From: a virus
Length of the DNA: 21,466 nt
Virus record (IMG/VR): IMGVR_UViG_3300025057_000052
Location: 1 to 21,466 of that record
Direction: 5' to 3' (one strand)
In this document: in pieces, positions 2,982 through 21,466 of the stretch
How the letters are laid out: each line of letters begins with the position of its first letter
How positions within the stretch are numbered: the first letter of the stretch is position 1
Program-made: the position numbers and the translations under genes
The notes under the pieces: generated by a model
The model's input: the letters and a program-made list of their open reading frames with translations, nothing else
Database searches by the model: none
Told to the model about the DNA's origin: nothing

Positions 2982-3674
2982 ATGAAAAAAGATTTAATAT
3001 ACGATAACCAGCAAACACTTTTTGGGGCTAAGAAAATAATAGGCTTTGGAAGTAGAGACTGGAACGTAAAGGAAATAGATAGAAAACTTGCAAACGATTT
3101 GATTGTGAAAAACCATTATTCTAAAAAGTTCTACAACGCAACGTACATTCATTTAGGTGTATTCATTTGCGGTGAATTGTTAGGCGTTTTGCAATATGGT
3201 TACGCTATGAACCCAGCAAGTTGCGGAAGTGTAGTGGAAGGCACGCAAATGGATGAATATTTGGAACTTAACCGAATGTGGTTAGATGACAAAGCGGAAC
3301 GGAATAGCGAGACAAAGGCAATTAGTTACAGCCTTAGATACATTAGAAGCAAGTTTCCTAAAATCAAATGGATTCAAAGTTTTGCTGATGAACGTTGCGG
3401 ATGCTTTGGGATAGTGTACCAAGCAGCAAGTTTTTCTTTCTATGGTGAACACGTTTCTACTTTCTGGACTGTTGATGGTGAAGTTTATCACAATAGCTTA
3501 ATGACAAGAGACCCTAAGCTAAGTAAAAGTGCAAAGTTTTTACAGGACAATAAAGAACGTGCCACAAGTGAAGAACTAAGACAATTTAGATACATTAAAT
3601 TCATTGATAAGCGTTGGAAAAAAAAGTGTTTGCTTAAAGAACAACCATACCTTAAATATTACAACGGTGATTAG
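2982..3674 (+). CDS. mom: Mom-like DNA modification protein (adenine methylcarbamoylation family)
   Basis: A 230-residue protein resembling phage Mu Mom and its relatives, GNAT-fold enzymes that add a carbamoylmethyl group to adenine in phage DNA and so block many restriction enzymes. Family-like stretches are NHYSKK (44-49), LGVLQYGY (67-74), ELNRMWLDD (95-103), RNSETKAIS (107-115) and SFADERCGCFGIVYQAASF (133-151). The C-terminus (about 195-230) is lysine- and arginine-rich and could hold DNA. The gene stands apart from the operons on both sides. It is enclosed by an inverted repeat that abuts start and stop, and by two strong hairpins outside that, which suggests a mobile cargo cassette. 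In Mu, Mom is tightly controlled because it is toxic; pairing of the repeats in the RNA would bring start and stop regions together and could limit translation. Recognised by eye; the chemistry of this homologue is inferred. Confidence 0.8.
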   Translation: MKKDLIYDNQQTLFGAKKIIGFGSRDWNVKEIDRKLANDLIVKNHYSKKFYNATYIHLGVFICGELLGVLQYGYAMNPASCGSVVEGTQMDEYLELNRMWLDDKAERNSETKAISYSLRYIRSKFPKIKWIQSFADERCGCFGIVYQAASFSFYGEHVSTFWTVDGEVYHNSLMTRDPKLSKSAKFLQDNKERATSEELRQFRYIKFIDKRWKKKCLLKEQPYLKYYNGD

Positions 3675-8737: not shown

Positions 8738-8989
8738 ATGAAAGCTAAGTGTCAGCGTTGCGGTAGGTTCTCTCCAGATGCAAAGTTTTTAAGTACTACT
8801 TGCAACTTAGTGGAGAACTTTGATTTAAGGATGATACCATTCTGTTCTGACGAGTGTAGAAACATCGTAGACAATCATTATTGGCAGAGCATTTATCAGG
8901 GAAAAACAGAAGGGTTTATAAAGTATTACAAAATAGAAAAATATCAGATATATGGAAAAGATAGATTCATTAGAACGGATGGTAATTAA
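8738..8989 (+). CDS. Small probable zinc-finger protein
   Basis: An 83-residue protein with C5-x2-C8 (KCQRCGRF) and C35-x3-C39 (FCSDECRN), plus C22, which suggests one zinc site. The rest is rich in Tyr and Lys. It begins two bases after the PAPS-reductase-like gene and runs into the next gene. I do not recognise a family. DNA, RNA or protein binding are all possible. Confidence 0.65.
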   Translation: MKAKCQRCGRFSPDAKFLSTTCNLVENFDLRMIPFCSDECRNIVDNHYWQSIYQGKTEGFIKYYKIEKYQIYGKDRFIRTDGN

Positions 8990-9578
8990 GCACTCAAGCG
9001 AGTTCTTCGGCTTAGACATTACCAAGAAAAGTAGGAAAAGAGAATACGTTGATGCAAGGTCGATGTGTATGTCTTATTTAAGAAACGAGTTAGACTTAAA
9101 GCTAACCTACATAGCGAGATTATTTTCTTTTGACCACACCACGATAATTCACTCCGTAGATAAGCACAACAATCTTATGGAGATAGATAAGGTGTATAGA
9201 AAGAAGTTTCACAAATACTTCTCATACATTGTTTCCTTAACACCACCAAGAGATGAGAGATACGACATAGAAAGCGTCTTACTTTATCAGACAATGCCTT
9301 ATTTAAGACATATAGAGCATAAGCTATCATTAAAGCCATCTGCTGCTATTCATCATGCGGTTTGCTTCTTATGCACCCAGTTGTTAGGAGATTTTAATGT
9401 ACAGACACCTAAGAAGTATGTAAGGAAAGATATGTGGACTGCTGAAGAGTACGAGAAGTTAGATTATTACCATCGTAAAGGGTTCACCAAGAACTTTATC
9501 TCCGCAAGATTAGGTAGAAGTCAAAACGCAATAGATAAGAAGATATATGAAAGGAAAGAGAGATACAGCGAAGTATGA
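8952..9578 (+). CDS. DnaA domain IV-like DNA-binding protein with C-terminal Myb-like domain
   Basis: A 208-residue protein. Residues 28-72 (SRKREYVDARSMCMSYLRNE, then LTYIARLFSFDHTTIIHSVD) match the DNA-binding domain IV of DnaA, including the signature DHTTIIH that contacts the DnaA box. There is no AAA+ ATPase domain. Residues 161-204 (MWTAEEYEKLDYYHRKGF...SARLGRSQNAIDKKI) look like a Myb/SANT or homeodomain-like helix-turn-helix. The start may be 8952 or the ATG at 8979, which reduces the overlap with the previous gene from 38 to 11 bases. It could be a phage origin-binding initiator, a regulator using DnaA boxes, or a competitor of host DnaA. The palindrome array 300-500 bases downstream is a natural target candidate. 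Confidence 0.8.
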   Translation: MEKIDSLERMVIKHSSEFFGLDITKKSRKREYVDARSMCMSYLRNELDLKLTYIARLFSFDHTTIIHSVDKHNNLMEIDKVYRKKFHKYFSYIVSLTPPRDERYDIESVLLYQTMPYLRHIEHKLSLKPSAAIHHAVCFLCTQLLGDFNVQTPKKYVRKDMWTAEEYEKLDYYHRKGFTKNFISARLGRSQNAIDKKIYERKERYSEV

Positions 9579-12719: not shown

Positions 12720-12800
12720 GATAGTCATTTCCACGGACAAAGAAAGACTCATGCATTAAAGTTAACATAATGCAAATTATGTAACAAAGTAGTTTTCTTG

Positions 12801-12857
12801 AAAGCCTTGTAAATACTGACGTTCTATGTATTGCATAGTACTGAAGGCTTTATTTTT
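12801..12857 (+). terminator. Long hairpin followed by T-rich stretch
   Basis: AAAGCCTT (12801-12808) pairs with AAGGCTTT (12844-12851), with an inner stem CTATG/CATAG, followed by ATTTTTA. It may be a terminator or part of a small RNA. Confidence 0.5.
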
Positions 12858-12889
12858 AGGGCTTTATGATAGTAAGGTAGGTCATACGT

Positions 12890-12904
12890 GATAGTAATAC
12901 TATC
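12890..12904. promoter_or_regulatory. Perfect 15-base palindrome, possible operator
   Basis: GATAGTA-A-TACTATC. A further half-site GATAGTA lies about 20 bases upstream (12868-12874), which favours a protein-binding site over chance. Confidence 0.5.
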
Positions 12905-13172
12905 GGTGTAGTAGCCATTCATTTCTACAATTCAATACATCACGTTAGGCTTTCTAAATGACAGATAAAGGGGTTTTAAAGTGGCAGAAATGGATAATTT
13001 GGTAGAGAGTAATAGGTAGGTATGGTAGAGTGTGGGATAATGTCTTAGAATGGATATTTGAGTGGATAGGGGTGTACGGGGCGGAATATGTCCCCCTCTC
13101 CTGTAAGTTTTGTGGGTTTTAGTTAGACATTGATTAGTTTTCGGGTAGTGGAGGAATCTTGACTGGGGTATC

Positions 13173-13212
13173 ACATAAGGGCTGTTACCGTTCCCATATC
13201 GGTATCTTATGT
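13173..13212. ncRNA. Two-part nested stem, possible piece of a structured RNA
   Basis: ACATAAG (13173-13179) pairs with CTTATGT (13206-13212), and inside it TACCG (13186-13190) pairs with CGGTA (13200-13204). The strand is undecided: a late-type promoter motif at 13331-13350 would transcribe it on the minus strand, while shared words with the RNA at 20333 are on the plus strand. Confidence 0.35.
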
Positions 13213-13330
13213 TTATAGCGAACTTACTAAGGCGATCAAGGCTACACTACGCTTACTGAACGACTGACATGAGAGTTGCGAACCATTGCTTTGCATCCGT
13301 TTAAGCAGTACGGACATTGTGGGTGAGTAC

Positions 13331-19990: not shown

Positions 19991-20252
19991 GTATAGCCTT
20001 ACTTTTTTCTATCTTTTCAAGTAATGTGTTTATGTCATCGTAGCTAACACAAGAGTAGTGTGAGGTATATATCTCTGTTCCACCCTCTACTGGGTGCATA
20101 AATTCAATGTGGTCTATGAAGATACATCTTTCTTCCATTCTACCTAAACCTTCGTCTAATTGCCCTAAATCAAGTTCAAACTCTATCTTCTCTCCATCCT
20201 CATTCTCACCCTCGAAGTGTTCGACCATATAAACCCTTGTCTTAATGTACAT
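19974..20252 (-). CDS. Small acidic hypothetical protein
   Basis: A 92-residue minus-strand protein, strongly acidic (HFEGENEDGEKIEFELDLGQ; EEKIEKSK near the end reverses the charge). It looks beta-rich in the first half with a final helix (DDINTLLEKIEKSKAILVKF). The start at 20252 lies 21 bases after the first base of a late-type promoter motif, the same distance as for the terminase gene, which supports both the gene and the motif. No family is recognised. Such acidic proteins are sometimes DNA mimics or inhibitors; no evidence beyond charge. Confidence 0.65.
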   Translation of the reverse strand: MYIKTRVYMVEHFEGENEDGEKIEFELDLGQLDEGLGRMEERCIFIDHIEFMHPVEGGTEIYTSHYSCVSYDDINTLLEKIEKSKAILVKFN

Positions 20253-20255
20253 AAT

Positions 20256-20273
20256 CCTTTATTATAAAGACAC
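20256..20273 (-). promoter_or_regulatory. Late-type promoter motif before the acidic minus-strand gene
   Basis: On the minus strand GTGTCTTTATAATAAAGG, then ATT and ATG. Its first 16 bases are identical to the copy before the terminase genes. It is divergent from the host-type promoter at 20298-20327, only 25 bases away. Confidence 0.6.
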
Positions 20274-20297
20274 ATAAAAAATATTTTAGGAAAGTGA

Positions 20298-20327
20298 TTG
20301 ACATTTTGTAAATCTGTATTATATTTG
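20298..20327 (+). promoter_or_regulatory. Host-type promoter of the structured RNA
   Basis: TTG (20298-20300), exactly 19 bases, then TATATTTG (20320-20327). Transcription is expected at about 20333, where the structured region begins and no gene follows for 420 bases. Confidence 0.8.
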
Positions 20328-20332
20328 CCGTT

Positions 20333-20640
20333 CTGGGAAACGACACATAATTAAAAACCACTACGCTTAGGTGGTTGCGAGTAGTTCCATTGGGGGTCTA
20401 CTCAAAGCGAGGTTCGCAGCATAAGGGATGGCGTTCGGTAGTCGGATGGTAGTCGCACCGACAGAGAAGTACACGAAGGTAACTCGTGAGGGATGCACCG
20501 AACAAATGCGACAGCACAGGTCTTGGATGCCCTACATTTTCCGCTGTGCGGGTGTCGACAACGCTGAGAACTCATTGCTCAAGCAATTAACATCCCCCTA
20601 CATTTAGGGGGGATAAAACTCTGCCTCGAATCTATTACTA
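20333..20640 (+). ncRNA. Large structured non-coding RNA
   Basis: About 300 bases without any coding frame, more G+C-rich than the surroundings, starting behind a near-perfect promoter. Stems read directly from the sequence are AACCAC/GTGGTT (20356-20376); GAGTAG/CTACTC (20379-20403); a multi-branch unit closed by GTTCGGT (20433-20439) with ACCGAAC (20497-20503) that holds hairpins GTCGG/CCGAC (20441-20462) and CACGA/TCGTG (20472-20488); CGACAGCACAG (20509-20519) with CTGTGC-GGG-TGTCG (20544-20557); ATTGC/GCAAT with a TCAA loop (20574-20587); and ATCCCCC/GGGGGAT (20592-20614). I cannot match it to a named family: it lacks the ends and tag frame of a tmRNA, and I see no clear RNase P or intron core. 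The 3' end is not set; the last C/G hairpin lacks a T-run. Confidence 0.75.
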
Positions 20641-20644
20641 AGCA

Positions 20645-20690
20645 ATTTGTTGTTCAATCATCTCAACTGTTCAGCGACAATGAACAATCT
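20645..20690 (+). promoter_or_regulatory. Mutually exclusive hairpins downstream of the structured RNA
   Basis: TTGTTCA (near 20650) and TGTTCA (near 20669) can each pair with the same TGAACAA (about 20680-20687), so two alternative stems compete. This could be an antiterminator-like switch or a simple repeat artefact. Confidence 0.35.
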
Positions 20691-20711
20691 ATTTATAATC
20701 GTTCTAAATAA
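20689..20711. promoter_or_regulatory. Fifth, isolated copy of the 23-base palindrome
   Basis: TATTTA at the left and TTCTAAATAA at the right match the array at 9873-10067, with the centre less symmetric. It sits 28 bases ahead of the late-type promoter motif of the next gene, a natural place for an operator. Confidence 0.5.
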
Positions 20712-20738
20712 GACACAGAATCTATTTTCGATAGATAT

Positions 20739-20754
20739 GTGTCTTTAATATAAA
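20739..20754 (+). promoter_or_regulatory. Late-type promoter motif before the virion gene
   Basis: GTGTCTTTAATATAAA directly abuts the ATG at 20755, the same layout as the copy at 13894. ATCTAT/ATAGAT (20720-20736) forms a small stem just upstream, and ATCTATTTT lies ten bases ahead of the motif. Confidence 0.55.
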
Positions 20755-21466
20755 ATGGCTATTACAATACATCAGCAGCCGAGTAGTACATTAGCAATAC
20801 CAGTAAATAATCCAATAGAGTATTTAGTAAGTTCTACCAATACATCAGAAGAGAACTTTAAGTTATCTTGTAAGATAGTTGTAGGAACTTCAGAAGTTAA
20901 AGAGTTAAAGTACGATGTTATACCGAGTACAGCGTATGTGATAGCAGAGATACAGAGATTAATAGAGGGTTACACAAGCAATGCTGAAACAAGCCTATTC
21001 ACATCAACTGGAAAGGTGAGTTGCGAAACCGATCAAAAGGTTTCAGTAAGGGCTGTATTTCAAGAGTGGTATTCAAACCCGTCAAGTGGAGACCCATCAT
21101 ACCAAGGAAGTCAATCTTCAGGAACTGCATTCTACATCTACAATGGTGCATTCAAGTACAGGGAGTGGCAGAACAATGAGTGGCAGAATTACACGATAGA
21201 TGGAGACCCATCAGTAGACCAATATGAAAAAATACTAACAGCATTTTCAAATAGCAGAGATAATTACATTACATCCCTAAGTGGATATTATGGAATCACA
21301 AACTTGTCTGCTGCCGATAAATTCAAGAAGATAACACCCACTCAAGTAACAAGATTAGCTTGGCAATGTAGAGATATAAGCAATAGCAAGGGATTCTATG
21401 TATATTTTAATTTCTATGATGAAAACTTCAATGTTCTAAGCCCAAGTGAAACCGCAGGGATAGACC
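20755..21466 (+). CDS. Probable virion (tail or fibre) protein, 3' end outside window
   Basis: An open frame of 237 codons running off the right edge. It begins MAITIHQQPSSTLAIPVNNP and is rich in Ser, Thr, Tyr, Asn and short beta-like strands (FYIYNGAFKYREWQNNEWQN, GFYVYFNFYDENFNVL), with no cysteine cluster or enzyme motif. The N-terminal pattern (hydrophobic-Pro-rich start, I-x-Y-x-V-S-S-T-N-T) is like that of baseplate, tail-associated or fibre proteins seen in phages of Bacteroidota. It has its own late-type promoter motif and a preceding palindrome, which supports a late structural role. The call is from composition and position only. Confidence 0.6.
   Translation, partial: MAITIHQQPSSTLAIPVNNPIEYLVSSTNTSEENFKLSCKIVVGTSEVKELKYDVIPSTAYVIAEIQRLIEGYTSNAETSLFTSTGKVSCETDQKVSVRAVFQEWYSNPSSGDPSYQGSQSSGTAFYIYNGAFKYREWQNNEWQNYTIDGDPSVDQYEKILTAFSNSRDNYITSLSGYYGITNLSAADKFKKITPTQVTRLAWQCRDISNSKGFYVYFNFYDENFNVLSPSETAGID

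Follow-up and report, generated by a model that had tools for sequence, protein, structure and literature searches.

A structured non-coding RNA with a candidate two-fold core upstream of a tail gene in a probable Bacteroidetes phage

Few large structured RNAs of unknown function have been described in phages. Two of them, GOLLD and ROOL, often lie near tRNA islands and form RNA-only multimers. Both are phage-encoded structured non-coding RNAs of unknown function that contain pseudoknots or kissing loops (PMC12286853). The RNA analysed here, which we term RNA1, resembles them in being a structured non-coding RNA encoded by a phage, but it is about 310 nt long, whereas many GOLLD RNAs exceed 800. 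Membership among such large ornate phage RNAs had been suggested in the original prediction, but the covariance models of GOLLD, ROOL and OLE matched neither the window (the whole stretch analysed, 21,466 bases of IMG/VR virus record IMGVR_UViG_3300025057_000052) nor the homologue described below. ARAGORN detected neither a tRNA nor a tmRNA in the window, whose record is possibly a fragment. Two further systems invite comparison: the phi29 pRNA, also a phage non-coding RNA near packaging or virion genes, and the riboswitch or attenuator leaders, in which alternative pairing is common and which RNA1 resembles in having, upstream of a gene, candidate helices that exclude each other.

The window probably derives from an uncultured phage of Bacteroidetes, because a related terminase (50% at the amino acid level) is held by a Flavobacteriales MAG and the more distant matches include Bacteroides, Parabacteroides and Flavobacterium phages. 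Its terminase, of the Terminase_3 type (17714-18964), is followed by two frames that overlap (18957-19670 and 19412-19696) and meet at a run of T; this arrangement, which is also kept in a relative, appears to resemble that of frameshifted tail-assembly chaperones. The run comprises nine T at the frame junction in both phages (window 19395-19440; L029 near 3088), and conservation extends to the downstream frame (WGWFILLERLC...), as is the case where tail-assembly chaperones are made by programmed frameshifting. Next come two short minus-strand ORFs, RNA1 and, from 20755, a tail-region gene on the + strand whose ORF is cut by the window end at 21466. RNA1 had been placed between terminase and virion genes. 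It does sit in the virion module, upstream of a tail gene, but it is not adjacent to the terminase, as the chaperone-like overlapping genes and the two short ORFs intervene. GC content is 51-55% at the centre of the RNA1 stretch versus about 27-35% on its flanks. Elsewhere in the window, positions 2982-3674 strongly match the Pfam family of Mom DNA-modification proteins (E 1.8e-69), and the protein encoded at 8952-9578 has the C-terminal DNA-binding domain of DnaA (E 7.1e-12).

The host-type promoter that had been claimed for RNA1 is present on the + strand at 20298-20327, where TTG (20298-20300) and TATATTTG (20320-20327) are separated by 19 nt, giving the Bacteroidetes-type form TTG-N19-TATATTTG. 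It is kept together with the RNA in the homologue, which carries TTG-N20-TATATTTG at the equivalent place. The -7 box fits the consensus TAnnTTTG mapped in Flavobacterium psychrophilum (PMC9723704), and strict matches to TTG-N18-20-TAnnTTTG occur seven times in the window versus 1.4 times on average in locally shuffled sequence. From the position of the promoter, RNA1 would start at about 20333 and so occupy 20333-20645 on the + strand; homology, the conservation profile and covariation support it, and the conserved, GC-richer unit spans about 20344-20643. In the homologous contig, seven T follow a small hairpin just past the expected start (L029:4577-4597), similar to an early terminator; this is not seen in the window.

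Searches with the terminase and the tail gene yielded one distinct homologue of RNA1 (L029:4597-4886, 74% identity), identical on two IMG/VR contigs (IMGVR 3300034374_002585 and 3300025671_001295). Like RNA1, it lies directly upstream of the same tail gene (60% amino acid identity), which in both phages starts 80-112 nt downstream of the RNA in the same orientation. The window and the homologue are 58-80% identical over 20396-20645 but 32-48% identical in the spacer that leads to the tail gene, so that the conserved unit stops about 100 nt short of that gene. The longest stop-free frame of the stretch in the window has 60 amino acids, and several 1-nt indels between the two sequences break any common reading frame. 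These frame-shifting indels rule out a protein-coding gene at RNA1, and the absence of a coding frame claimed in the original prediction is borne out.

All the hairpins described from the sequence are present on the + strand of the window. Nearest the 5' end, hairpin P1 (20356-20376; stem 20358-20362/20370-20374) has the invariant loop UACGCUUAG, and its loop segment GCUUAG is able to pair with CUAAGC/UUAAGC at 20638-20643. It is followed by a hairpin that is absent from the homologue (20379-20403; stem 20379-20384/20398-20403) and by an invariant GCGA/UCGC hairpin (20407-20417; stem 20407-20410/20414-20417). The core contains the GUCGG/CCGAC hairpin (20441-20462; stem 20441-20445/20458-20462), the CACGA/UCGUG hairpin (20472-20488; stem 20472-20476/20484-20488), in which four of five pairs are doubly changed, and an arm with a GGG bulge (20509-20557). 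This arm, predicted as a long helix interrupted by the bulge (20509-20519/20544-20557), combines GCACAG/CUGUGC (20514-20519/20544-20549) with a second pairing (20509-20513/20553-20557), and keeps all 11 pairs, five of them through double changes. The 3' hairpin UCCCCCUA/UAGGGGGG (20593-20612; stem 20593-20600/20605-20612) completes the set. The claim of six or more helices was thus right as to the hairpins, and those that vary do co-vary, but not as to the multi-branch unit closed by a 7-bp stem: of GUUCGGU/ACCGAAC the homologue keeps only 3 bp (GUU/AAC). The same strand is occupied by a 9-bp long-range helix that is kept in both sequences, and in the core, long-range and alternative pairing probably takes the place of a 7-bp multibranch closure.

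Folding energy by itself is weak evidence for structure in RNA1: on the + strand z is -1.24 and 10 of 100 shuffles reach an equally good energy, while the - strand gives -2.27 and the homologue -1.60. An energy so near that of shuffled sequence would suit the view that there is no RNA at all, only a conserved site in the DNA or hairpins that came together by chance. Against this stand the conserved promoter, the out-of-frame indels and the double compensatory changes in several helices, and we consider it very improbable. Over 28 proposed pairs, the core alignment of window and homologue contains ten double changes and one broken cell, versus at most two double changes in control alignments that had been slid; P1 contributes two further double changes. 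Because the helices of these 28 pairs had been chosen with both sequences in view, we added an unbiased search in which helices were sought without a prior structure and compared with alignments whose substituted letters had been redrawn. In the core, it counted 12 double changes in helices that had at least three each (mean 1.1 and maximum 11 in the null; 0 of 1000 randomised alignments reached this number), and over the full-length alignment eight versus 0.9 in the null (P = 0.006). The covariation check proposed with the original prediction is therefore positive, for two distinct sequences, and on this comparative sequence evidence RNA1 is confirmed as a real, folded, non-coding RNA.

The unbiased search also supplied helices beyond those originally listed, namely the 9-bp helix and a pairing of two segments that we call X (20452-20457) and Y (20507-20512). 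Y has a second partner, Z (20553-20557), in the GGG-bulge arm. Fold A (20430-20531) consists of the 9-bp helix (20430-20438/20523-20531), the X-Y pairing enclosed by it and the CACGA hairpin, with 20 of 20 pairs kept and nine double changes. Fold B combines the GUCGG hairpin, with X in its loop, the CACGA hairpin and the GGG-bulge arm with Y-Z, and keeps 21 of 21 pairs with ten double changes. The CACGA hairpin, common to both, accounts for four double changes in each. X-Y and Y-Z each show four double changes, X and Z having changed in parallel, and the covariation is compatible with both folds. In the isolated core, the energies of the two folds lie 1.5 and 0.8 kcal/mol apart; at full length, fold B comes out about 7 kcal/mol lower in the window RNA, and in the homologue the two are nearly equal. 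As some compensatory changes support each of two alternative folds, the core of RNA1 may be a switch between mutually exclusive helix sets, a suggestive reading of the alignment. Some helices of folds A and B could coexist as pseudoknots, strict exclusion applying only to the two partners of Y. With two sequences only, and with X-Y alone moderately unusual (a helix with four double changes arises in 12-14% of randomised alignments), we put the switch forward as a hypothesis and not as a result. The same two facts would suit an RNA with a single fold, in which either X-Y or Y-Z, but not both, is real, the remaining pairing being coincidental, and there is no switch; so would the bulge before Z, of 3 versus 8 nt in the two sequences. 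X and Z have nevertheless each changed in step with Y at four positions, and we rate the single fold at somewhat under an even chance. It bears on the switch only, and is compatible with RNA1 being either an independent RNA or a leader.

RNA1 may instead act in cis, as the 5' UTR of the tail-gene transcript, with a change of fold controlling transcription or translation of virion genes. In both phages the RNA has the orientation of the same gene and lies 80-112 nt upstream of it, which fits such a leader, as does the failure to find a + strand terminator between RNA1 and the tail gene; there is no U tract after the 3' hairpin on this strand, and with no terminator found, transcripts may extend into the tail gene. 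On the other hand, the spacer is poorly conserved, no terminator or ribosome-site helix was found at the end of RNA1, and RNA1 differs from riboswitch and attenuator leaders in having no match to a known aptamer and a promoter of its own. The tail gene also has its own start motif, which may be a promoter or a signal for translation: TATGTGTCTTTA (20736-20747, + strand) directly precedes it, and forms of this motif precede other genes in the window phage and its relative. We moderately prefer an independent non-coding RNA, because of the poorly conserved spacer and the start motif of the tail gene, and regard the leader as possible though on the unlikely side.

The start motif recurs more widely. 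The form (G/A)TGTCTTTATAATA is found shortly before gene starts in the window (13895+, 17035+, 20740+, 20272- and 13349-) and in L039 (2037+, 6296+, 12540+ and 5877-); the genes behind it are the small terminase, a gp10-like gene, the tail gene and a minus-strand ORF, and it may be a promoter or a translation signal specific to the phage. An inverted copy of TATGTGTCTTTA lies at 20265-20276, before a minus-strand ORF, so that RNA1 is flanked by an inverted repeat, TAAAGACACATA/TATGTGTCTTTA; since this repeat is the gene-start motif seen elsewhere in the phage, we rejected a mobile cassette. An antisense action of the RNA1 5' end (AACGACACATAA) on the motif was also discarded, as it is not kept in the homologue.

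RNA1 matches no named class in Rfam, and the original prediction had assigned none. The Rfam covariance-model search, also proposed there, found nothing at gathering score in the window, nothing at E up to 10 in 19700-20800 and nothing in the homologue, and this covers pRNA, tmRNA, group I intron, 6S, riboswitches and the other Rfam families. The family looks rare from the sequences searched. Scans of viral contigs with several patterns returned only the two homologous contigs; the other viral pattern hits were judged to be chance, most being plainly coding or lacking a significant model score, and so were the weak model hits L035/L036, L056-L058 and L137 (L035 lies within an ORF and L056 apparently in a gene). 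One pattern found nothing in 84,980 bacterial and archaeal genomes, the covariance model nothing convincing in sampled Bacteroidota genomes (about 830 counting overlaps), and blastn against phages and plasmids nothing, or only matches of 19-20 nt. The pattern searches require near-exact short stretches, so more diverged members may be missed. More distant relatives with a terminase 48-50% identical, including 33-36 kb records that are possibly incomplete, are without RNA1. Their terminases are of the same type, which argues against a packaging or virion-assembly RNA like the phi29 pRNA, as do the lack of an Rfam match and the genes that separate RNA1 from the terminase. RNA1 does lie within the virion-gene region, but nothing positive supports the packaging role once suggested for it, and we find that role scarcely credible.

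The same phage clade has a second conserved non-coding element. It occupies about 12770-13325 of the window, in a mostly ORF-free gap that begins after about 12463, and aligns with L005:38-506 and L006:2-175. Its hairpin UCCGU/ACGGA is replaced by the compensatory CUCUG/UAGAG in L006 and CCCCU/AGGGG in L005, and compensatory changes are also found in ACAUAAGG/UCUUAUGU. The element has no match in Rfam at a family's cut-off, and a sequence kinship between it and RNA1 was not significant.

We consider it about an even chance that RNA1 is an independently transcribed phage non-coding RNA with a bistable or pseudoknotted core, most likely acting in trans. According to this proposal, host RNA polymerase would start the RNA (about 310 nt, with a conserved unit of about 300) at about 20333 from the sigma-A type promoter, in a rare clade of Bacteroidetes-type phages and apart from the phage genes that bear their own start motif. 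The conserved core would fold with long-range and pseudoknot-like pairing and, because both partners of Y changed in step with Y, probably moves in solution between two folds, Y pairing with X or with Z. The choice between them would fall to a partner, whether a ligand, a protein or an RNA, and during infection RNA1 would serve in trans as a regulator or a scaffold. The existence of two distinct sequences only, the shuffle-like energy of the whole RNA and the CACGA double changes common to both folds weigh against this explanation. We entertain tentatively, and with some doubt, the bolder idea that RNA1 represents a new family of trans-acting bistable phage RNAs, made by the host polymerase and switching fold when a host or phage partner binds, in a phage with a second conserved, likewise unclassified non-coding element.

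In RNA1, a previously unclassified structured RNA of a Bacteroidetes-type phage, the promoter is recognisable and the covariation already allows two specific alternative helices to be predicted. Should the switch prove real, Y together with X and Z would offer a defined handle for learning what such RNAs respond to.
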